From a virus, in IMG/VR virus record IMGVR_UViG_3300022752_000111, positions 1 to 48,511 of that record: a DNA stretch of 48,511 bases; one strand, written 5' to 3'. A model generated the notes under the pieces. The model saw only the letters and a list, made by a program, of their open reading frames with translations, was not told the DNA's origin and did no database searches. How positions within the stretch are numbered: position 1 is the first letter of the stretch; each line of letters opens with the position of its first letter. Positions 2,050 to 14,915 of this stretch are shown here, piece after piece. The translations under genes were made by a program, and so were the position numbers.

Positions 2050-2750
2050 CTGCCACAGTTGTCATCCCTACTACCGGGGCAGAAACTTTACAACAAGCTG
2101 TAGAGAGTGTACTCAATCAGACGTTGCCTACAGACTGTTATGTAGTTGTCGATGGCCGAGACAATTATAGTCGAGCTAATAGAATATTAGACGACTTTGC
2201 TGATAGAATAAAAATTGCCTATCTGCCAGAAAATGTTGGAGCCAATGGGTTTTATGGGCACAGAGTTTACGCAGCATTTACACATTTAATAAACACTGAA
2301 TACCTCTGTTATTTGGATCAAGACAATTGGTTTGAGCCCGATCACGTAGATACTTGTATAGAAACAATTACCAGTAAACAGTTACAATGGTGTTATAGTT
2401 TACGCAATATTTACAATAGTGAACGGTTTGCCTGTAGGGATGATTGTGAAAGTTTAGGTAAGTATCCAAGCTATCATAATATCAATCATATTGATACAAA
2501 TAGCTATTTTCTAAAACGTGATTTGGTTCTTCAATTGGCCAGTGTATGGCATGGCGGTTGGGGGCAAGATCGAGTATTTTATTCTGTAATAAAAGATATG
2601 TTACCTAAATATGATTGTACTGGTAGTTATACTTTGAATTACAGAGTAGGCGGCAATGCTGGATCAGTCACTGAAGACTTTTTCCACAACGGTAATCAAA
2701 TACAAAATAAACGATATCAAGGCAAGTTTCCGTGGCAAAAAAGAACTTAA
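2046..2750 (+). CDS. GT2-like (GT-A fold) glycosyltransferase, 234 aa
   Basis: The protein opens with a typical GT2 nucleotide-sugar binding strand (TATVVIPTTG), followed by ESVLNQT and a VVVDG strand. The metal-binding DxD is D91-Q-D93 (YLDQDNW). GT2 enzymes transfer a sugar from a nucleotide sugar to an acceptor with inversion. The N-terminus carries all of the core, and the C-terminal part (WHGGWGQDR) is a plausible acceptor/catalytic region. There is no membrane segment, so it is probably cytoplasmic. It is coupled to both neighbours by overlaps (ATGA upstream; 19 bp downstream). Confidence 0.8.
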   Translation: MTATVVIPTTGAETLQQAVESVLNQTLPTDCYVVVDGRDNYSRANRILDDFADRIKIAYLPENVGANGFYGHRVYAAFTHLINTEYLCYLDQDNWFEPDHVDTCIETITSKQLQWCYSLRNIYNSERFACRDDCESLGKYPSYHNINHIDTNSYFLKRDLVLQLASVWHGGWGQDRVFYSVIKDMLPKYDCTGSYTLNYRVGGNAGSVTEDFFHNGNQIQNKRYQGKFPWQKRT

Positions 2751-3550
2751 TAATCAGCGCATTTACTGGCTATTCATTTAATCAAATTAAACCTTACGTA
2801 CACAGTATAAGAGATTTAAATCTAGACTGTGACCTAGTTATGGTGGTCGGGAACACAGACAGCAACACCCGTGTTCAACTTGAACAATTAGGATGGCGAT
2901 TAGAAGACTTGCCTAACACAAGAGAAATCCCAATTCATGTACTAAGGTTTTTACCTATGTACAATTATTTGTTTGAACACGGCGATTACGACTTTGTTGT
3001 AAGCACTGATGTCAAAGATGTAATCTTTCAACGAGATCCTTTTGCCTGGCTCGAAGAATACCTAGTCGATTATGAATTAGTGGCTGGTTCAGAAGCCTTG
3101 CGATATCGAGATGAACCTTGGGGCGATGATAACCTGCGTTCAACTTATGGTGGTTATGTTCATGAGCGTTTTAAAAATAACAAGATATACAATGTAGGTA
3201 CATTAGGCGGTCACGGTGAATATATGCGTGATCTTTTTTTTAACCTATTTTATAACAGCATTGGTCGTCCGATCCCCATTGTGGATCAGGCAGTGTTTAA
3301 TGTAATGATACAAACGCAGCCATATCGTGATCATGTGCTTTTTGCTGATCAAAGACTGGGCTGGGCTTGTCAAGCAGGCACTGTAGCTGATCCAGCTAAA
3401 ATGAATTACTTTAGGCTTAACTTGTTAGAGCCCGAACCCCAATGGGCAGATGGTCGGGTATTAACCAGCACTGGCGATGAGTTTGTGATTGTACATCAAT
3501 ACGACCGTGTACCTGAATGGAGAAATTTTTACGCAGGAAAATATAAATGA
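2732..3550 (+). CDS. GT-A-like putative glycosyltransferase, 272 aa
   Basis: It starts with GTG at 2732 inside the end of the previous gene. The layout resembles GT-A nucleotide-diphospho-sugar transferases: an N-terminal Rossmann-like strand (NLIISAFTG), a DxxD-type metal site D93-V-K-D96 in VVSTDVKDVIFQ, a NVGTLGG segment and a DQAVFN segment. The last two are arranged as in enzymes acting on sugar-nucleotide donors where a conserved Asp closes the active site. No membrane segment is present. The exact CAZy family is not assignable by eye. The product ends in an ATGA overlap with the methyltransferase. Confidence 0.65.
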   Translation: MAKKNLIISAFTGYSFNQIKPYVHSIRDLNLDCDLVMVVGNTDSNTRVQLEQLGWRLEDLPNTREIPIHVLRFLPMYNYLFEHGDYDFVVSTDVKDVIFQRDPFAWLEEYLVDYELVAGSEALRYRDEPWGDDNLRSTYGGYVHERFKNNKIYNVGTLGGHGEYMRDLFFNLFYNSIGRPIPIVDQAVFNVMIQTQPYRDHVLFADQRLGWACQAGTVADPAKMNYFRLNLLEPEPQWADGRVLTSTGDEFVIVHQYDRVPEWRNFYAGKYK

Positions 3551-4116
3551 AAACTCTAGTTGATATAATGATAGAACGAAACATTCGTAATGATACACAT
3601 TACGAATTTGGTACTGATAAAGAATTTAATCATAGGTATTGCTCGGCCTTCTATGACCGAGAATTCTTAAAGTACAAAGAAAAAGAAATTGCCTTATTTG
3701 AAATAGGTGTGCATCGTGGCGGCAGTCTAGCAGTACTTCATGAATATTTCCCAAACGCTGTTGTTATTGCCGGAGCAGACACTGTTAACTTTGGTGCAAG
3801 CGAAAACTGTAAACCATATCCTAAAGTAAAAGTCATTTACGCAGACGCTTATGATTCTAAATTTGTAGAACAATTACCAAACTTTGATATTATTATCGAC
3901 GACGGTCCTCATACGAAAGAGAGTCATATTAAAACTCTACAACTGTATACTAAACTATTAAATCCGGGCGGTGTCCTTATAATCGAAGACATAGCTGATA
4001 TTGCATGGTGCGAAGAATACAAAAAGTTTGTGCCAGATAATATGTCCACAGAAGTCGTTGATGTAAGACAAGAGTCTAATATGAAAGACAGTGTTCTTTT
4101 TGTGGTTAGAAATTAA
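3547..4116 (+). CDS. SAM-dependent methyltransferase, TylF/CmcI-like (Methyltransf_24 type), 189 aa
   Basis: SAM-binding motif I is visible as EIGVHRGGS at residues 52-60, and the motif DDGPH at 118-122 precedes a PGGVLIIED strand. This set is typical of the TylF/CmcI/rhamnosyl O-methyltransferase group, in which the acidic pair binds a metal and the enzyme methylates a sugar hydroxyl or a small metabolite. Its place between glycosyltransferases suggests O-methylation of a sugar or glycan. The start ATG overlaps the upstream stop, and the stop overlaps the next ATG (TAATG). Confidence 0.75.
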   Translation: MKTLVDIMIERNIRNDTHYEFGTDKEFNHRYCSAFYDREFLKYKEKEIALFEIGVHRGGSLAVLHEYFPNAVVIAGADTVNFGASENCKPYPKVKVIYADAYDSKFVEQLPNFDIIIDDGPHTKESHIKTLQLYTKLLNPGGVLIIEDIADIAWCEEYKKFVPDNMSTEVVDVRQESNMKDSVLFVVRN

Positions 4117-4866: not shown

Positions 4867-5667
4867 ATGAACAATGACATCACAATCGTAACTGCTTTTT
4901 TTGACATAGGACGTGGCGATTGGACACCTGATCGTGGGTTTCCAAGCTACTTGCACAGAACCACAGACACATACTTTGAAAGGTTTAGCCATTTGGCTCA
5001 ACTTGATAATGAGATGTTTATCTTCACCAGCAGTGATATGATAGACCGTGTTGCTAGTCTACGAAAAGATAAAGAAACAACTATATTTGAATTTGACTTA
5101 TCAAGCGAAGCCATAGATTTACGAGAGCGTATTGAAATAATATACGCTACACCTGAATATATGCGAATGATAAATCCCAAGGAAAGAACTAACCCTGAAT
5201 ACTGGAATGCAGATTATGTTATAATTAATTTGTTCAAGAGTACATTTGCTTGTATGGCCAGTATCCAGGCTCGTAATGATATGCTTGCATGGTTAGACTT
5301 TGGGTATTGTAGAGGCCAAGACTCACTACACGGAGTAAAACATTGGCGCTATCCTTTTGATCCTAGTCTAATTCATTTGTTCAAGTTAAAAGATTATGTA
5401 CCTGGTACCACTATTCATGACATGATTGCAAATAATGATGTACATATTACTGGTCCATGTATCGTAGCCAGCAAAGCTAACTGGCGTCAATTAGAAATGT
5501 TAGTCATGGAAGGTGTGCGTGAACTTATTGCTAAGTTCTTAATTGATGATGATCAATTGTTTTTATTACTAGCCTATCTTACACGTCCGGAATTGTTTAA
5601 ATTACATCAAGTAAGTGCCGATAATTGGTTCACTGTGTTTCGAGATTTTAATGAAAATATATCTTAA
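4867..5667 (+). CDS. HtrL/YibB-like protein (putative glycosyltransferase), 266 aa
   Basis: The N-terminus (ITIVTAFFDIGRGDW) followed by a repeated 'N-x-MFIFTS' strand is characteristic of the HtrL_YibB family, which sits in LPS/O-antigen loci and is thought to be a glycosyltransferase. WLDFGYCRG near residue 140 would be the acidic donor site. Length is in the family range. The protein is probably cytoplasmic. The next gene starts 17 nt before this stop. The biochemical role of the family is poorly defined, so the substrate is unknown. Confidence 0.7.
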   Translation: MNNDITIVTAFFDIGRGDWTPDRGFPSYLHRTTDTYFERFSHLAQLDNEMFIFTSSDMIDRVASLRKDKETTIFEFDLSSEAIDLRERIEIIYATPEYMRMINPKERTNPEYWNADYVIINLFKSTFACMASIQARNDMLAWLDFGYCRGQDSLHGVKHWRYPFDPSLIHLFKLKDYVPGTTIHDMIANNDVHITGPCIVASKANWRQLEMLVMEGVRELIAKFLIDDDQLFLLLAYLTRPELFKLHQVSADNWFTVFRDFNENIS

Positions 5668-6394
5668 TTGTACTGCAAACTTGGGAGATTTTGTTCAAAG
5701 TCTTCCGGTATTATCTGGGTTATATAAAGAATACGGTCCCATAGATTTTTATATTAGACACGAAATGCGTAAGTTCTGCGGTCTCAAAGAATTTTTAATG
5801 TACCAGGATATTTTCAACAAAGTAGAGTTTGATGACGAAGTTCGTGAAGCTGTTGATTCCGTATACATCCTGAGTTCTTGGACTAGAGAAGATAAAAATG
5901 ACCCCAATCGTCCTATTGAAACTTGTAGGTATGAAAATTGGTTAAAAGATAATTATAAATTTCGTTTCGACGTTAATGACAGTTTTGAAATTAAATTTCC
6001 CGATGTTGATATAGAATTAAAAGACAATTACTATGTAGGCGATCGTTGGTATACCCCAGATATTGACGCACGTAGAGAATGCCATGTGCTGGCACATCTC
6101 GATAAATTTGAATTCATTGACTATAAGAATACGTTATTAACAAATTGCTATATCATCAAAAAAAGTTCTTTGCCTTTTATAACAAATTTTACCGGTATTG
6201 GTATGATTGCTGATTTACTTAACAAAGAAACCTATGTGGTTTGGCGTGCCGAAGATTGGAAACCTGAATTTAGAAACGGTAATGATATTAGTTGGGATAA
6301 TGGAAAAAATATAAACAAGATATTTGAAAAACATTTCTATTTAAATCGCCGAGCTAGATTAGTTCACTCCAATGACCTAGAGGATTTGTTGTGA
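5651..6394 (+). CDS. Putative GT-B (heptosyltransferase-like) protein, 247 aa
   Basis: I chose the ATG at 5651 rather than the in-frame codon at 5615, because it gives a clean Rossmann start (MKIYLNCTANLGDFVQSLP) typical of GT9/heptosyltransferase-like enzymes (strand, then GD and a helix). A weakly conserved second half contains NFTGIGMIADLL, in the position where GT9 enzymes have the donor-binding segment. No membrane segment. It is followed by a second GT9-like gene, so the two may act as a pair. Distant similarity only. Confidence 0.5.
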   Translation: MKIYLNCTANLGDFVQSLPVLSGLYKEYGPIDFYIRHEMRKFCGLKEFLMYQDIFNKVEFDDEVREAVDSVYILSSWTREDKNDPNRPIETCRYENWLKDNYKFRFDVNDSFEIKFPDVDIELKDNYYVGDRWYTPDIDARRECHVLAHLDKFEFIDYKNTLLTNCYIIKKSSLPFITNFTGIGMIADLLNKETYVVWRAEDWKPEFRNGNDISWDNGKNINKIFEKHFYLNRRARLVHSNDLEDLL

Positions 6395-7089
6395 TTTTTA
6401 ATATAAAGTTAGGTACCTTTGGTGGACCCATGCGTATGGGTGATATTATTGCCTGTGCCAATGTAGTCGAGCACTTCAGACAAACTGAAAATAACACAGA
6501 CATAAAATTCCATTTAGACTCGACTAGCATACAAAGCTCAACTCATGTACAAGAATTTTGTAAATGGATGTTAGACAATACTGACTATTACTCTGCCACA
6601 CCTGGAGAAGTAACATTACCATGGTCAAAAGTTAATTTATGGGATTACAGAGATATTTCAGGTGACTTGGTGAAGATACCAAATGCCATGACTCGGAGCA
6701 AAAAGGTTGTAGTAGTGCCATTGTTAGACGCTGATTACAATACATACCGTAACTGGCCGAATTCCGTGTTAGAAAAAATTCTACAAGATGTTGAAGTCGA
6801 CTATTTGAATTACGATTTAGTGGTAGCCGGAGCTAATCCTCAGGATCGGCCGGGCTGGAGATCAAGTAAAAAATTAACATATACATTACAAGAAATTATG
6901 ACAGCCGAAGTCTACATCGGTGGCGACACTGGGCTAAGTCATTTTACTGGTGCCCTAGTTCAGGGACCCGACCCTATATATTATACCAGCAGTCGTGGAC
7001 TTTTACACACAACGCCACTTTATTGGTACACCCATAAAAAAGGACAAATGCGTACTTATTGGTTAGACTTTGAGAACACAAAATGGTAA
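6391..7089 (+). CDS. GT9-like (GT-B) putative glycosyltransferase, 232 aa
   Basis: It starts with GTG at 6391, overlapping the previous stop by 4 nt. The segment GPMRMGDIIACANVV resembles the N-terminal GD-loop of heptosyltransferases. YIGGDTGLSHF near residue 176 matches the donor-sugar signature of GT9 (D-[ST]-G-x-x-H). It is shorter than cellular heptosyltransferases (about 320-350 aa), so it may be a minimal version. Substrate unknown. Together with the gene upstream it suggests transfer of heptose-like or deoxy sugars. Confidence 0.6.
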   Translation: MIFNIKLGTFGGPMRMGDIIACANVVEHFRQTENNTDIKFHLDSTSIQSSTHVQEFCKWMLDNTDYYSATPGEVTLPWSKVNLWDYRDISGDLVKIPNAMTRSKKVVVVPLLDADYNTYRNWPNSVLEKILQDVEVDYLNYDLVVAGANPQDRPGWRSSKKLTYTLQEIMTAEVYIGGDTGLSHFTGALVQGPDPIYYTSSRGLLHTTPLYWYTHKKGQMRTYWLDFENTKW

Positions 7090-7760
7090 AAAATTCTGCT
7101 ATTTTAATAACTGCGTACTGCGGTGGTAACGATCCTGTTTACTATACTACTGGTAACGAAGAGCAAAATGCAAAAAAACGTCATATGGCAAAAACACTTG
7201 CACGCCATCTGGGAAATTCGGATTATCATGTATGTATGAGTAGTCATAGTGCTTTAGATATGGACACACAACGAGCCTGTTCTAGTTTTATATACGATTC
7301 TGACAACAGCTGGCAAATATGCGGACTTCCCTTACGACCAAATCATGGTGTAGCCGAAATGACCGCTATAGTTAACGGGCTTATGATGTTAAAGATAAAG
7401 GGTTTCGATTGGGTTCTAAAATTGAATTATGACCAAACCCCAACATTAGACTACGATAATGTTATTAAAACATGCAGTCAGTTAGATGCTGACTTGGCCA
7501 CTTACGAAAATGCCACTGATTACGGAATGATGGCATTCTGGGGCAACATTGATTTTATAATTGACTCATTGCCCTTAGATAGTTTGCAAACGTGTGAAGG
7601 TGCAGTAGAGACTTGTTGGTATAATAAAATCGCGGATTCTCTCATGAAACCACGTGTGCATGGCTTTGCTAGTTATGAGCAGATGTTTGCAGTCCCTGAC
7701 GGGACATTACTGCATCATAGTTATGTGGGCAGCGCATTACATGAGTATAATTATCAATGA
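7083..7760 (+). CDS. Putative glycosyltransferase (GT-A-like), 225 aa
   Basis: The N-terminus (AILITAYCGG) and the strand FDWVLKLNYDQTP are laid out like a GT-A enzyme, with the acidic donor site read here as N-x-D rather than DxD. A later segment (YEQMFAVPDG) could form the acceptor side. No signal peptide or membrane helix. The assignment rests mostly on operon context and the alpha/beta pattern. Overlaps the neighbours by 7 nt upstream and 4 nt downstream. Confidence 0.5.
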   Translation: MVKNSAILITAYCGGNDPVYYTTGNEEQNAKKRHMAKTLARHLGNSDYHVCMSSHSALDMDTQRACSSFIYDSDNSWQICGLPLRPNHGVAEMTAIVNGLMMLKIKGFDWVLKLNYDQTPTLDYDNVIKTCSQLDADLATYENATDYGMMAFWGNIDFIIDSLPLDSLQTCEGAVETCWYNKIADSLMKPRVHGFASYEQMFAVPDGTLLHHSYVGSALHEYNYQ

Positions 7761-8473
7761 AAACTATAGCAATAAGCTGTGTTGACACTGCATATTATGA
7801 TTGTACACAGCGAGCTTTGACTAAAACTTTAGAAACGATGCGTGATCAAAATTGTACCAAAGTTTACTGGTTTTCCGACATCGCTTGTCCTTATGAATTA
7901 GATGTTCCAGTACAATGGATACCCATACCTAAAATTTCAAACCAAAACATTGAGACTTCTTATCCAATGATATATGGTCTTGTAACATTAAAGCTAATGC
8001 CAATAATTATACAAGAAGATTTCAATTTAACCATTCATGACGACGGATTCGCTGTGAATAGTCAAGCATGGACCGATGAGTTTTTAGAATATGATTATAT
8101 TGGTGCCTGTTGGGGAGAAGATGTCGGTAATGGGGGCTTTACATTACGTAGTAAAAAATTATATAATGCCTTACACAATATTAATGTCGAATATGATTGG
8201 CGAAGACTACCCAAGCAGTTGTTTGCACCTGAATTTGAGGGAATGGTTTGGTTACAAACAGCTCATTGCCAGGATCCAATAATTCCCGAAGACAATATAA
8301 TATGCAGAGTGTATAAGCAGCAGTTAGTAAGTGATTATGCAATAAAATTTGCACCAGCAGCAATTGCAGATAGATTTAGTATAGAAAATAAGATGTACTC
8401 ACCTTGGTTAGGCCGTAGCTTAGGATTCCACGGACGCCACGGTGTTGCCAAATATTACAATATAGAGTTATAA
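7757..8473 (+). CDS. DUF5672-like putative glycosyltransferase, 238 aa
   Basis: The sequence shows the pattern I associate with DUF5672: an HDDGF site (H94-D95-D96) after a hydrophobic strand, a YDYIGACW segment, GNGGFTLRS, a PEDNIIC segment and a C-terminal SLGFHG. These proteins occur next to glycosyltransferases and are thought to be GT-A enzymes. The ATG at 7757 overlaps the upstream stop. The donor and acceptor cannot be told from the sequence. Confidence 0.65.
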   Translation: MKTIAISCVDTAYYDCTQRALTKTLETMRDQNCTKVYWFSDIACPYELDVPVQWIPIPKISNQNIETSYPMIYGLVTLKLMPIIIQEDFNLTIHDDGFAVNSQAWTDEFLEYDYIGACWGEDVGNGGFTLRSKKLYNALHNINVEYDWRRLPKQLFAPEFEGMVWLQTAHCQDPIIPEDNIICRVYKQQLVSDYAIKFAPAAIADRFSIENKMYSPWLGRSLGFHGRHGVAKYYNIEL

Positions 8474-8474
8474 T

Positions 8475-9719
8475 ATGAAACTACCACCGTTTATTAAAAG
8501 TTATGACAATTTCACACCCGGTAAAGACACTGTGCTATACTCTGGTCCCTATTGGGACCAAAAAGAGATTACAGCAGCTATTCGTTCGTTAACTGAAGGT
8601 GCTTGGATTACAAGCGGACAAGAAGTAGACGCTTTTCAGTCTGAATTCGCAAAGATGTTTAATACTTCGTTTGCTCATATGGTCAATTCTGGCAGCTCGG
8701 CTAACCTTGTAATGGTTACAGCTCTTAAGAAGTACTTACAATGGGCAGATGGTGATGAAGTTATTGTTAGCCCGGTGGGTTTTCCCACTACTATTGCACC
8801 TCTCGTACAAAACAACCTTAAGCCAGTATTTGTCGACATTGAAATGCAGACTTTAAATTTTGATGTGGGATTAATAGAATCGGTAATAAATGAGCGCACT
8901 CGTGCAATTTTTGTGAGTCCGGTACTAGGTAATCCGCCCGATATGGATGAATTGCAACATTTGGCCAATAAACATGGTTTATATTTAATTGGCGACAATT
9001 GTGACACACTCGGAACTTTGTGGAATTCACGTCCCATCACTGACTATTATTATAGTTGGAGTTGTAGTTTTTATCCTGCACATCATATAAGCACCGGTGA
9101 AGGTGGCATGGTCGCTAGCAACGATGAGGAACTAATTAAAATTGTAAGAAGCATGAGTTGGTGGGGAAGAGACTGTTATTGTGTTGGGGCAAATAACTTA
9201 CTTGCTTGCGGTACTTGCGGTAAAAGATTTGACCAATGGTTGGATAATTATGATGGTATAATTGATCACAAATATGTTTTTACCAACATAGGGTACAATC
9301 TTAAACCTCTAGATTTACAAGGTGCTATTGGTCGCGAGCAATTATTGAAAATGCCTGAGATTGACCATAAGCGCAGGGAAAACAAAAAGATTATTACTGA
9401 ACATTTAAAAGCTATTTCAGATGTAAGAGTGGCCGAGCAACTGTTCCAAGCAGATCCAAGTTGGTTTGGTGTTCCCATCATCTGCAACAGTCAAGAATTA
9501 AAAGAAATGTTAGTAGCGCATTTTGAAGATAACAAAGTTCAAACTCGTAGTTACTTTGCAGGTAATATTTTATTACATACAGGATACAGGCACTTAGGGA
9601 ATTACAAGGATTATCCAAATGCAAACTTGGCTCTTAGTCATGTATTTTTTATAGGCTGTACACCTTTATACACACCAGCAGTGCTAGACTATATTAAAGA
9701 GGTTATCAATAAATGGTAA
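8475..9719 (+). CDS. rfbH: RfbH-like CDP-4-dehydro-6-deoxyglucose 3-dehydrase (PMP and [2Fe-2S]), 414 aa
   Basis: A DegT/DnrJ/EryC1-fold protein in which the lysine that normally holds PLP is His203 (YPAHHISTGEGG). This is the hallmark of the E1/RfbH 3-dehydrases, which use PMP and a [2Fe-2S] cluster to remove the C3 hydroxyl of CDP-4-keto-6-deoxyglucose. The cluster cysteines are present: Cys176 (GDNCD), Cys234 exactly 57 residues later, Cys236, and a final Cys before GKRF (Cys248, with an extra Cys245). The family spacing between the last two is 7; here a 4-residue insertion makes it 11. It overlaps by 7 nt the SDR gene. The pathway product would be a 3,6-dideoxyhexose (abequose, paratose, tyvelose type). 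Confidence 0.85.
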   Translation: MKLPPFIKSYDNFTPGKDTVLYSGPYWDQKEITAAIRSLTEGAWITSGQEVDAFQSEFAKMFNTSFAHMVNSGSSANLVMVTALKKYLQWADGDEVIVSPVGFPTTIAPLVQNNLKPVFVDIEMQTLNFDVGLIESVINERTRAIFVSPVLGNPPDMDELQHLANKHGLYLIGDNCDTLGTLWNSRPITDYYYSWSCSFYPAHHISTGEGGMVASNDEELIKIVRSMSWWGRDCYCVGANNLLACGTCGKRFDQWLDNYDGIIDHKYVFTNIGYNLKPLDLQGAIGREQLLKMPEIDHKRRENKKIITEHLKAISDVRVAEQLFQADPSWFGVPIICNSQELKEMLVAHFEDNKVQTRSYFAGNILLHTGYRHLGNYKDYPNANLALSHVFFIGCTPLYTPAVLDYIKEVINKW

Positions 9720-10531
9720 ACTTATTTGGCCATGGATTTGTTGGTGGCGAATTTGCTAAACGATATCCTTGTGTTATTAATTCGCGTGACGATTACGTAC
9801 CTCAGAGCAATAATATTCTGTATTTTATAAGCACTATACACAATTATCATGTTTTCACAGATCCTCATTTAGATATTAACACTAATCTAAATTTACTAAT
9901 TACAGTGTTAGAAAACGCTAAAAATCGTTTTGGATGTGATTTTACTTTTAATTTTATTAGTTCTTGGTTTGTTTATGGTAACACCGAAATGCCCGCAAGA
10001 GAAAGCAATTATTGTGATCCAAGAGGTTTTTACTCGATAACAAAGAAGGCTGCTGAAGATTTGCTTATTTCCTACTGTACCACATTTAACATTAAGTATC
10101 GTATCTTGCGGTTAGCTAATGTGTTGGGTTCTAGTGACACCAAAGTAAGTGCTCAAAAAAATGCTTTGCAATATCTTATCAACCGGTTAAAAAGACACGA
10201 GCCTATTGAACTTTATGATGATGGTGATTTTTATAGAGACTACATTGATGTTGATGATGCTGTAACTGCTATAAACTTAGTGTTATCAAATGGTCAATTG
10301 AATTATACTTATAATATAAGTAATGGACAGCCCATAAAGTTTAAAAATTTAATTGATTATGTAGTTAGTAAGACTAATAGTAAGAGCCAAATAAGTGCTA
10401 TAGAGCAGCGAGATTTTCATAAAATAGTACAAGTCAAGACCATGTTCCTAGATAATGAAAGACTACTTTTGCTAGGCTATAGTCCGAACTACACTATAAA
10501 CCAAACTTTGGACAAACTCATTAATGAATAA
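9713..10531 (+). CDS. NAD(P)-dependent SDR epimerase/reductase, possible CDP-3,6-dideoxyhexose reductase, 272 aa
   Basis: An extended SDR with the nucleotide loop G6-x-G8-x-x-G11 ([11 protein letters not shown]), a Ser-containing strand FISSWFVYG and the catalytic Y107-x-x-x-K111 (YSITK). Its position directly after rfbH parallels O-antigen loci where RfbJ or RfbS reduces the RfbH product to CDP-abequose or CDP-paratose. It could equally be a general sugar epimerase/dehydratase. It overlaps both neighbours (7 and 8 nt). No separate E3-type reductase, needed by RfbH, is seen in the window, so the host would have to supply electrons. Confidence 0.75.
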
Positions 10532-11672
10532 ATTTAGATTCCATATATTAGGACTGCCGCACACAGTTACATCAAAAGAATATAATGCCTGCGCCTATAC
10601 TCAAAAGGTATGGAAATTCGGCAAGATGATGAAAGAGCGAGGGCATGAAATAATTCATTATGGACATGAGGATTCCGATCTTATCTGTGACGAACATGTT
10701 ACAGTTAGTACCAACCGTGATTTAGAAATTGCCTACGGTGATTATGACTGGCGCCGTAATTTTTATAAGTTTGATGTAAGTGATTATGCTTATACAACCT
10801 TTTATGCTAATGCTATCCGTGAAGTTGGACTACGCAAACAACCACTTGATTTTATTTTACCTTTCTGGGGCTCGGGTGTTCGTCCTATTTGTGATGCACA
10901 CCCAGAATTAATCACAGTAGAACCCGGCATCGGATACGCAGGTGGGCATTGGGCTCGTTGGAAAATATTTGAAAGCTATGCCATTTACCATGCTTTCTGC
11001 GGTATGCAAAATGTAGGCACATGCAGACAAGACTGGTACGAAACAGTTATCCCTAATTACTTTGATCCTGAAGATTTCACCTATGCTCCTGAGACTAAAG
11101 AAGATTATTTTCTTTATTTGGGCAGAGTTTATGAAGGCAAAGGTGTGCATATAGCTATTCAAGTTGCCGAAGCTACTGGAATTAGATTAAAGATAGCTGG
11201 ACAAGGAAGTTTAGAATCCATGGGCTATCCAAATACACCCAGTAACATTGAGTTTATCGGGTATGCTGATATTGAAACTCGTAGGCAGTTAATGAGTCGT
11301 GCTCGTGGTGCTTTTGTACCTAGTATGTATATCGAGCCTTTTGGCGGAGTACAAATTGAAATGCTAATGTCTGGCACACCTACTATAAGCACAGACTGGG
11401 GTAGTTTTGTAGAAAACAATGTACACGGTGTTACCGGATATCGTTGTCGTACATTTGATCAATTCTGTTGGGCAGCGGAAAATATAGATAAAATTGATCC
11501 AGCTGCATGCCGCTCTTGGGCAGTGGATAACTTTAGCTTAGATGTAGTAGCTCCACAATACGAGGAATTCTTCCAAAATGTCTTAGATGTTTACACAGGT
11601 AAAGGTTGGTATCAAAGACATCAGCGTAACAATCTTGATTTCAAAACTAAATTTTACCCAAAATCAAATTGA
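10524..11672 (+). CDS. GT4-family glycosyltransferase (GT-B), 382 aa
   Basis: The C-terminal donor domain is clear: [11 protein letters not shown], then IKLKIAGQG-like strand-loop (LKIAGQGS) and the E-x7-E motif E271-E279 (EPFGGVQIE) followed by MSGTPTIST. These are the classic retaining GT4 donor-binding elements. The N-terminal half is an acceptor domain of GT-B type. Length is typical for GT4. It is the last enzyme of the operon, and the next promoter starts at its stop codon. Confidence 0.85.
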
Positions 11673-14162: not shown

Positions 14163-14915
14163 ATGGTACCATATACATATTTGATTGGATGGAAGAAATT
14201 TAGTAAATTCTATTACGGAGTTAGATATGCCTGGAATTCGCACCCCTCTGACTTAATGAAAACATATTTTAGTAGTAGCGAATCAGTTAGGGAAATGATT
14301 TCGGAAAATGGGATTCCCGATTTAATAGAAATAAGAAAAACATTTGATTCAGTGGATTCTGCTAGAGTATGGGAACATAAGGTCCTCCGTCGTATGAAAG
14401 TAACAGCTGATGAAAAATGGTTGAATAAAACAGATAACAAATCTATATCACCGATGCCCGGGGAATCTAATCCGATGTTTGGAAAAGTTGGTGAGCTTCA
14501 TCCTAGGTTTGGGTCTACTCATTCCGATGAAACTAAACAAGTAATCGGATTCAAAAGTAGTCTTAAAAAGGGAAATATGCCCGACGGTTTTAGTGAAAAA
14601 ATGCGACAAATAGTAACAGGTAGGATTCATAAAGATGAATCCAAATTAAAAATTAAAGTGAAATTAACAGGAAGAACTCTTTCTGATTCTCACATTGAAA
14701 ATATTATGAAAAATCATGCAGATTTTTCTGGAGAAAATAATCCTTTTTTTGGTAAATCTCACTCCGATGAATCAAGGTCGAAAATGCGTGAAAAAAGACA
14801 AGGTAAAAGATGGATTCATAATTTGTTACAAAATAAAAGAATGCTTGTAAAAGAATCTGAGATTAACGACTTTTTAAGCCAAGGCTGGTCAAAAGGAAAA
14901 GGAAAATGGGATTAG
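14163..14915 (+). CDS. GIY-YIG-like homing endonuclease with NUMOD3 repeats, 250 aa
   Basis: The N-terminal ~75 residues match a GIY-YIG nuclease layout: YLI at 6-8, YYG at 17-19, a conserved Arg at 21 and a WE pair in the following helix (RVWEHKVL). The C-terminal half has at least two NUMOD3 DNA-binding repeats of the type GENNPFFGKSHSDE. The gene is clearly AT-richer than its neighbours and starts with its own late-type promoter, both signs of a mobile free-standing endonuclease. It ends inside the next gene by 10 nt, so it may have inserted next to its target, and the target may be that gene or its neighbour. Confidence 0.8.
   Translation: MVPYTYLIGWKKFSKFYYGVRYAWNSHPSDLMKTYFSSSESVREMISENGIPDLIEIRKTFDSVDSARVWEHKVLRRMKVTADEKWLNKTDNKSISPMPGESNPMFGKVGELHPRFGSTHSDETKQVIGFKSSLKKGNMPDGFSEKMRQIVTGRIHKDESKLKIKVKLTGRTLSDSHIENIMKNHADFSGENNPFFGKSHSDESRSKMREKRQGKRWIHNLLQNKRMLVKESEINDFLSQGWSKGKGKWD

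Follow-up and report, generated by a model that had tools for sequence, protein, structure and literature searches.

A predicted E1/RfbH-type sugar 3-dehydrase of a mostly viral, long-loop subfamily and its reductase-like partner in a phage glycan island

Known 3-dehydratase substrates are a CDP sugar (E1), a GDP sugar (ColD) and a dTDP-2,6-dideoxy sugar (SpnQ), and we know of no dTDP-linked 3,6-dideoxyhexose class among them. The best match in sequence and structure to the phage dehydrase described here was E1/RfbH (AscC, DdhC), the CDP-4-keto-6-deoxyglucose 3-dehydrase of Yersinia pseudotuberculosis (3bcx, 3bb8). The two share the DegT fold, a His in place of the PLP lysine, the C-X57-C-X-C-...-C pattern and the FYPAHH motif, whereas they are only 35–38% identical and differ in the last cluster loop (X11 in the phage enzyme, X7 in E1). 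They also differ in their genomic company, which is RfbF/RfbG for E1/RfbH and RmlB/RmlA plus a specific SDR for the long-loop enzymes, called type II below. GDP-4-keto-6-deoxymannose 3-dehydrase (ColD) resembles the phage enzyme in its fold, the His for Lys replacement and PMP chemistry, but it is 28–30% identical, acts on a GDP sugar, contains no iron–sulfur cluster and uses hydrolysis (PMC8987622). E1 takes electrons from the [2Fe-2S] flavoprotein E3, and SpnQ, the dTDP-4-keto-2,6-dideoxyglucose 3-dehydrase of the spinosyn pathway, accepts ferredoxin or flavodoxin with their reductases as donors (PMC8987622). SpnQ is similar to the phage dehydrase in the dTDP substrate and the [2Fe-2S] cluster, both predicted for the latter, and in the use of general carriers instead of E3, but differs in its 2,6-dideoxy substrate and its place in an actinomycete antibiotic pathway. 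The SDR encoded next to the phage dehydrase has the extended NDP-sugar SDR fold and the Ser/Tyr/Lys triad of the GDP-4-keto-6-deoxy-D-mannose reductase RMD (6x3b, 2pk3), with 21–26% identity. LPS-type clusters have long been known in cyanophages, their function being unproven (PMC3037559), rfbH is one entry in a bulk list of metabolic genes of viruses (PMC10653327), and the copy of cyanophage S-H68 is already annotated as CDP-4-dehydro-6-deoxy-D-glucose 3-dehydratase. No description of the long-loop subfamily, its fixed SDR partner or its dTDP neighbourhood was found in the open-access literature.

The window, i.e., the whole stretch of 48,511 nucleotides analysed here, is the viral record IMGVR_UViG_3300022752_000111 (48.5 kb), which has a T4-like phage gene content (gp41-type helicase, primase, UvsW-type helicase, class I ribonucleotide reductase, DNA ligase and a baseplate/tail-fibre connector). 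Glycan genes, all on one strand (+), span approximately 2–11.7 kb, with the dehydrase and SDR genes amid them. This island starts with genes for a GT2 glycosyltransferase (2046–2750), a glycosyltransferase-like protein (2732–3550; weak match to phrog_1579) and a methyltransferase (3547–4116; Methyltransf_24), followed by an HtrL/YibB family gene (4867–5667), a gene for a possible heptosyltransferase-like glycosyltransferase (6391–7089; weak match) and, directly upstream of the dehydrase gene, one for a DUF5672 protein (7757–8473). The dehydrase gene (8475–9719, +; 414 aa) overlaps by 7 nt the gene of the partner SDR (9713–10531, +; 272 aa), which in turn overlaps by 8 nt the gene of a GT1-type glycosyltransferase (10524–11672, +; phrog_3408). 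Both the dehydrase and the SDR reading frames are intact. The HtrL/YibB homologue was a clear match inside the phage glycan island (PF09612, 186 bits; NCBIfam YibB, 243 bits, under its cut-off), and a probable homing endonuclease (phrog_314) is encoded at 14163–14915 (+). Base composition is uneven across the cassette: the G+C content is 32% for the SDR gene and 38% for the dehydrase gene, compared with 40% for the window. At the nucleotide level, the cassette matched no named phage.

The PLP lysine of ordinary DegT aminotransferases is missing in the dehydrase and its position is occupied by H203 (codon 9081–9083, +), which aligns with residue 220 of E1 in the PDB alignment, the position at which the H220K mutant 3bb8 carries a Lys. 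Cysteines in the motif region are found at 176, 234, 236, 245 and 248, with a gap of exactly 57 residues between the first two, giving the motif C176-X57-C234-X-C236-X11-C248, with H203-H204 located within FYPAHHIS. Residues read from the 3bcx sequence of Yersinia E1 equate C176 (codon 9000–9002, +) with C193, C234 and C236 (C234-Y235-C236, codons 9174–9182, +) with C251 and C253, C248 (codon 9216–9218, +) with C261, and H203 with H220. C176, C234, C236, C248, H203 and H204 were identical in all 85 aligned sequences, down to 53% identity. The C236–C248 loop (9183–9215, +) has 11 residues, four more than in classic RfbH/E1, and this length was kept in all 85 aligned type II sequences. C245 lies inside the four-residue insertion; it is Cys in 83 of the 85 viral sequences and C, N, E, V or K in bacteria. 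As its position is not conserved, C245 was rejected as a cluster ligand, which leaves C248 as the residue that probably completes the predicted ligand set. Each of the 85 viral type II sequences also has a fifth invariant cysteine, C337, and Yersinia E1 has no Cys in that region.

The dehydrase matched Pfam DegT (PF01041) at 1.9e-72 and the RfbH model at 5.8e-112, but missed the equivalog cut-off of classic RfbH (NCBIfam PRK15407; 374.6 vs 423 bits). Its best PDB sequence matches were Yersinia E1 (3bcx, 6e-78), the H220K mutant 3bb8 and then ColD. Judged by sequence, the E1 signature match is far beyond chance. An AlphaFold2 model built from 52 relatives (mean pLDDT 92.6, pTM 0.90) had E1 3bcx as the top PDB match in Foldseek (3.8e-39), and VIA likewise placed E1 first (Z 51.4, 2.0 Å over 390 residues), ahead of ColD (Z 48) and Lys-type aminotransferases (Z 47 or less). 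The cluster loop (residues 231–260) was the less certain part of this model, with a pLDDT of 71–81 by block. The original prediction had recognised an enzyme of the E1/RfbH type in which His203 replaces the PLP lysine and the cluster cysteines keep the 57-residue gap, and had named structure prediction and a tree as checks; the His, the four predicted cluster Cys and the best sequence and fold matches, both to Yersinia E1, all supported this class assignment. It had also reported a four-residue insertion in the last Cys–Cys loop, which is real but not particular to this enzyme, as it marks type II as a whole, including its bacterial members.

The presence of such an enzyme in a phage, thought to be unusual, proved to be common: a scan of viral contigs with the window dehydrase gave 519 matching stretches, the best 80 of which were 64–100% identical to it, and a second scan with the S-H68 copy as the query gave 196 matches. 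The dehydrase is carried by the isolated cyanophages S-H68, S-B05, S-B43, RN05-S and RB11-B and by one 642-kb huge phage (LR756502.1, about 9923–11221). The huge-phage copy, 59% identical to that of the window, was the closest to it among named phage records, and the standard SDR was not directly adjacent there. In bacterial genomes, the long-loop group comprised 28 loci at 48–63% identity and a Pirellula locus at 40% that is also long-looped, while classic RfbH with the short loop was 37–42% identical to the window dehydrase. Among 386 cyanobacterial genomes sampled, the long-loop type was found in one and classic matches in 71; in 369 Bdellovibrionota genomes, six of 85 matches were of the long type. 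The only bacterial match at 63% identity is a 3.7-kb MAG contig, which may itself be viral. Many ACG-2014f and S-CAM7 cyanophages encode a different DegT enzyme, about 25% identical, adjoining GDP-mannose 4,6-dehydratase (e.g., KJ019141.1, locus L166, 2899–4092); a pattern scan gave no match in it to the cluster-cysteine or FYPAHH-type motif, and it is perhaps a GDP-sugar aminotransferase or a ColD-like enzyme.

In a tree built by a quick method without bootstrap, with SH-aLRT as support, the window dehydrase grouped with the His-type E1 enzymes and not with Lys-type DegT proteins. Classic RfbH formed a single clade (SH-aLRT 97) and the long-loop type another (SH-aLRT 98), except for the Pirellula sequence, which lay at the unresolved base. 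The window dehydrase was nested in a phage clade with 50–74% identity among relatives, whereas the copies of S-H68 and of the AG-345-D19 virus branched in another part of the tree, with sequences from Prochlorococcus and other bacteria. This implies that phages and bacteria exchanged the type II gene more than once. The closest bacterial homologue had been expected to date a transfer; however, the bacterial sequences closest to it belong to type II itself, where they occur sporadically, and the window dehydrase lies inside a diverse phage clade, and a recent transfer of bacterial RfbH into this phage was rejected. As judged from these alignments and the tree, type II is a subfamily separate from classic RfbH: most of its members are viral, bacterial ones are sporadic, and the four extra loop residues are a fixed feature.

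The SDR possesses the GxGxxG nucleotide-binding motif and the triad S84/Y107/K111. At the site of the Asp-Glu pair that follows the active-site Ser/Thr in 4,6-dehydratases (TDE in RmlB), it has W85-F86, conserved in 92 and 96 of 98 family members, respectively, and this lack of Asp-Glu argues that the protein is not a 4,6-dehydratase. The SDR gene was near or next to the dehydrase gene in 178 of 193 type II loci (82/84 and 74/80 viral, 22/29 bacterial) and in none of the 51 classic RfbH loci (Fisher p 2e-39, a value that overstates the association as the loci are related and not independent). The order dehydrase–SDR was found in 80 loci of the phage group of the window and the reversed order in most bacteria and in 47 cyanophage-like loci; opposite orders in different clades indicate that the pairing survived rearrangement. 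Overlap of the two reading frames was also seen. The evolutionary distances of the two proteins were correlated (Mantel r 0.89 over 96 pairs, 0/999; 0.88 for phages only). An apparent dehydrase–SDR fusion at one locus (L089, a 740-aa ORF) was rejected, its upstream part being another frame over a separate SDR. The two-gene cassette is widespread in aquatic viruses.

The neighbourhoods of the 193 type II loci (84 + 80 viral, 29 bacterial) and the 51 classic loci pointed to different nucleotides: RfbG was found near 0/193 type II and 21/51 classic loci and RfbF near 1/193 and 34/51, the reference sequences for these counts, as for those of the SDR and of upstream RmlB, having come from the same loci. 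Counts with curated NCBIfam models, in phage records and among bacterial neighbours, served as the independent check. Among 57 candidate neighbours of classic bacterial loci, these models identified 17 CDP-glucose 4,6-dehydratases, 12 RfbF, one RmlB and one RmlA, and among 25 candidate neighbours of bacterial type II loci six RmlB, three RmlA and no CDP enzymes. RmlB exceeded its cut-off in 9 of 37 phage records, and RfbF in none of 35, nor in the window record. In 11 phage loci, RmlB with the catalytic TDE and YxxxK intact is encoded immediately upstream of the dehydrase, and in Bacteriovoracaceae an RmlA–RmlB pair is divergent from SDR–dehydrase. In S-H68, RmlB is preceded by a gene for a 166-aa CTP_transf_like nucleotidyltransferase (locus L082, 5528–6028), also present in 39 cyanophage-like loci. 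RmlB is common for dTDP-rhamnose synthesis, and a glycan island may contain it incidentally. The window has no RmlB, the dTDP step resting on the loci of relatives, and in most type II loci examined no 4,6-dehydratase was within reach. As RmlB also serves rhamnose and the window lacks it, the neighbourhood favours dTDP-4-keto-6-deoxyglucose without proving it; we infer that this, rather than the CDP sugar of classic RfbH, is most likely the natural substrate.

The original prediction had placed both genes in the CDP-3,6-dideoxyhexose pathway, with the SDR in an RfbJ/RfbS role. Under this explanation, the dehydrase would act on CDP-4-keto-6-deoxyglucose, the SDR would be an RfbJ/RfbS-like synthase and the host would provide CDP-glucose and its dehydratase. 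RfbH/E1 is indeed the nearest characterised family of the dehydrase, and some of the cyanophage-like loci carry the CTP_transf_like gene. Nevertheless, the score below the RfbH equivalog cut-off, the near absence of RfbF and RfbG around type II genes, with RmlB/RmlA there instead, and the lack of the partner SDR in classic loci speak against the CDP route, which appears unlikely. What stands of the earlier proposal is that the SDR adjoins the dehydrase and resembles a nucleotide-sugar reductase or epimerase.

Two further alternatives, both rather improbable, concern the chemistry of either protein. The dehydrase could bring about no net reduction and act by hydrolysis, as ColD does, or by aminotransfer, as in SpnQ, the SDR then acting on a different intermediate. 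SpnQ can transaminate when the reductase is absent (PMC8987622). Searches of 17 large phage records gave no E3-type reductase, NAD_binding_1 or flavodoxin domain, and Fer2 domains were absent from 33 of the 35 phage records searched for them, with the ferredoxins of cyanophages S-H68 and RN05-S as the exceptions; a phage-encoded E3 was not found in the phage records, most of which are fragments. The four cluster cysteines are kept without exception, however, and the hydrolytic ColD has no cluster. Their invariance suggests that the cluster is used and makes host carriers the likely electron source, host ferredoxin or flavodoxin probably being the donor of the dehydrase. The SDR, in turn, might be an epimerase, in which case the final sugar would differ or a host reductase would finish the pathway. 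Its model (pLDDT 95.7) scored almost equally against GDP-4-keto-6-deoxymannose reductases (Z 30.6) and UDP-sugar 4-epimerases (Z 30.4), and the best PDB sequences in a profile search were epimerases, but Foldseek and the single-sequence search with phmmer both ranked the reductase 6x3b (RMD) first. Moreover, the dehydrase product would carry a 4-keto group that has to be reduced, and the SDR is the only constant companion of the dehydrase. A function of the SDR as an NDP-4-ketosugar reductase is considered probable.

The favoured reading, held with reasonable though not high confidence, is that the cassette encodes a dTDP-4-keto-6-deoxyglucose 3-dehydrase and a 4-ketoreductase which, fed with electrons by the host, would provide a 3,6-dideoxyhexose for the phage glycan island. 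RmlB of the host or the phage would form dTDP-4-keto-6-deoxyglucose, the substrate of a PMP- and [2Fe-2S]-dependent NDP-4-keto-6-deoxyhexose 3-dehydrase of the E1/SpnQ type. H203 would take a proton from the PMP–sugar Schiff base with the departure of the C3 hydroxyl, and electrons passing through the C176/C234/C236/C248 cluster would reduce the glucoseen to the 4-keto-3,6-dideoxy sugar. The SDR would then reduce C4, and the resulting NDP-3,6-dideoxyhexose would serve the glycosyltransferases of the island around the cassette. What the analysis showed directly is the signature in the sequence, the match in fold, the conservation of both, and the statistics of gene pairing and neighbourhood. 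The 3-dehydrase chemistry is well supported, whereas catalysis itself, nucleotide specificity, electron donor, product stereochemistry and the acceptor are predicted.

What looked like one odd gene thus belongs to a subfamily that can be recognised, is mostly viral, and has a defined partner and a substrate open to testing. More tentatively, this largely viral family may make dTDP-3,6-dideoxyhexoses, with the longer cluster loop tuned to general host carriers and the sugar decorating phage particles or the host surface. If the proposed reading is right, dTDP-3,6-dideoxyhexoses can be made by a phage-borne route, and the label CDP-4-dehydro-6-deoxyglucose 3-dehydratase in phage records names the wrong nucleotide. 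The cultured cyanophages (S-H68, RN05-S and relatives) would then allow the targets decorated by phage sugar islands to be studied directly.
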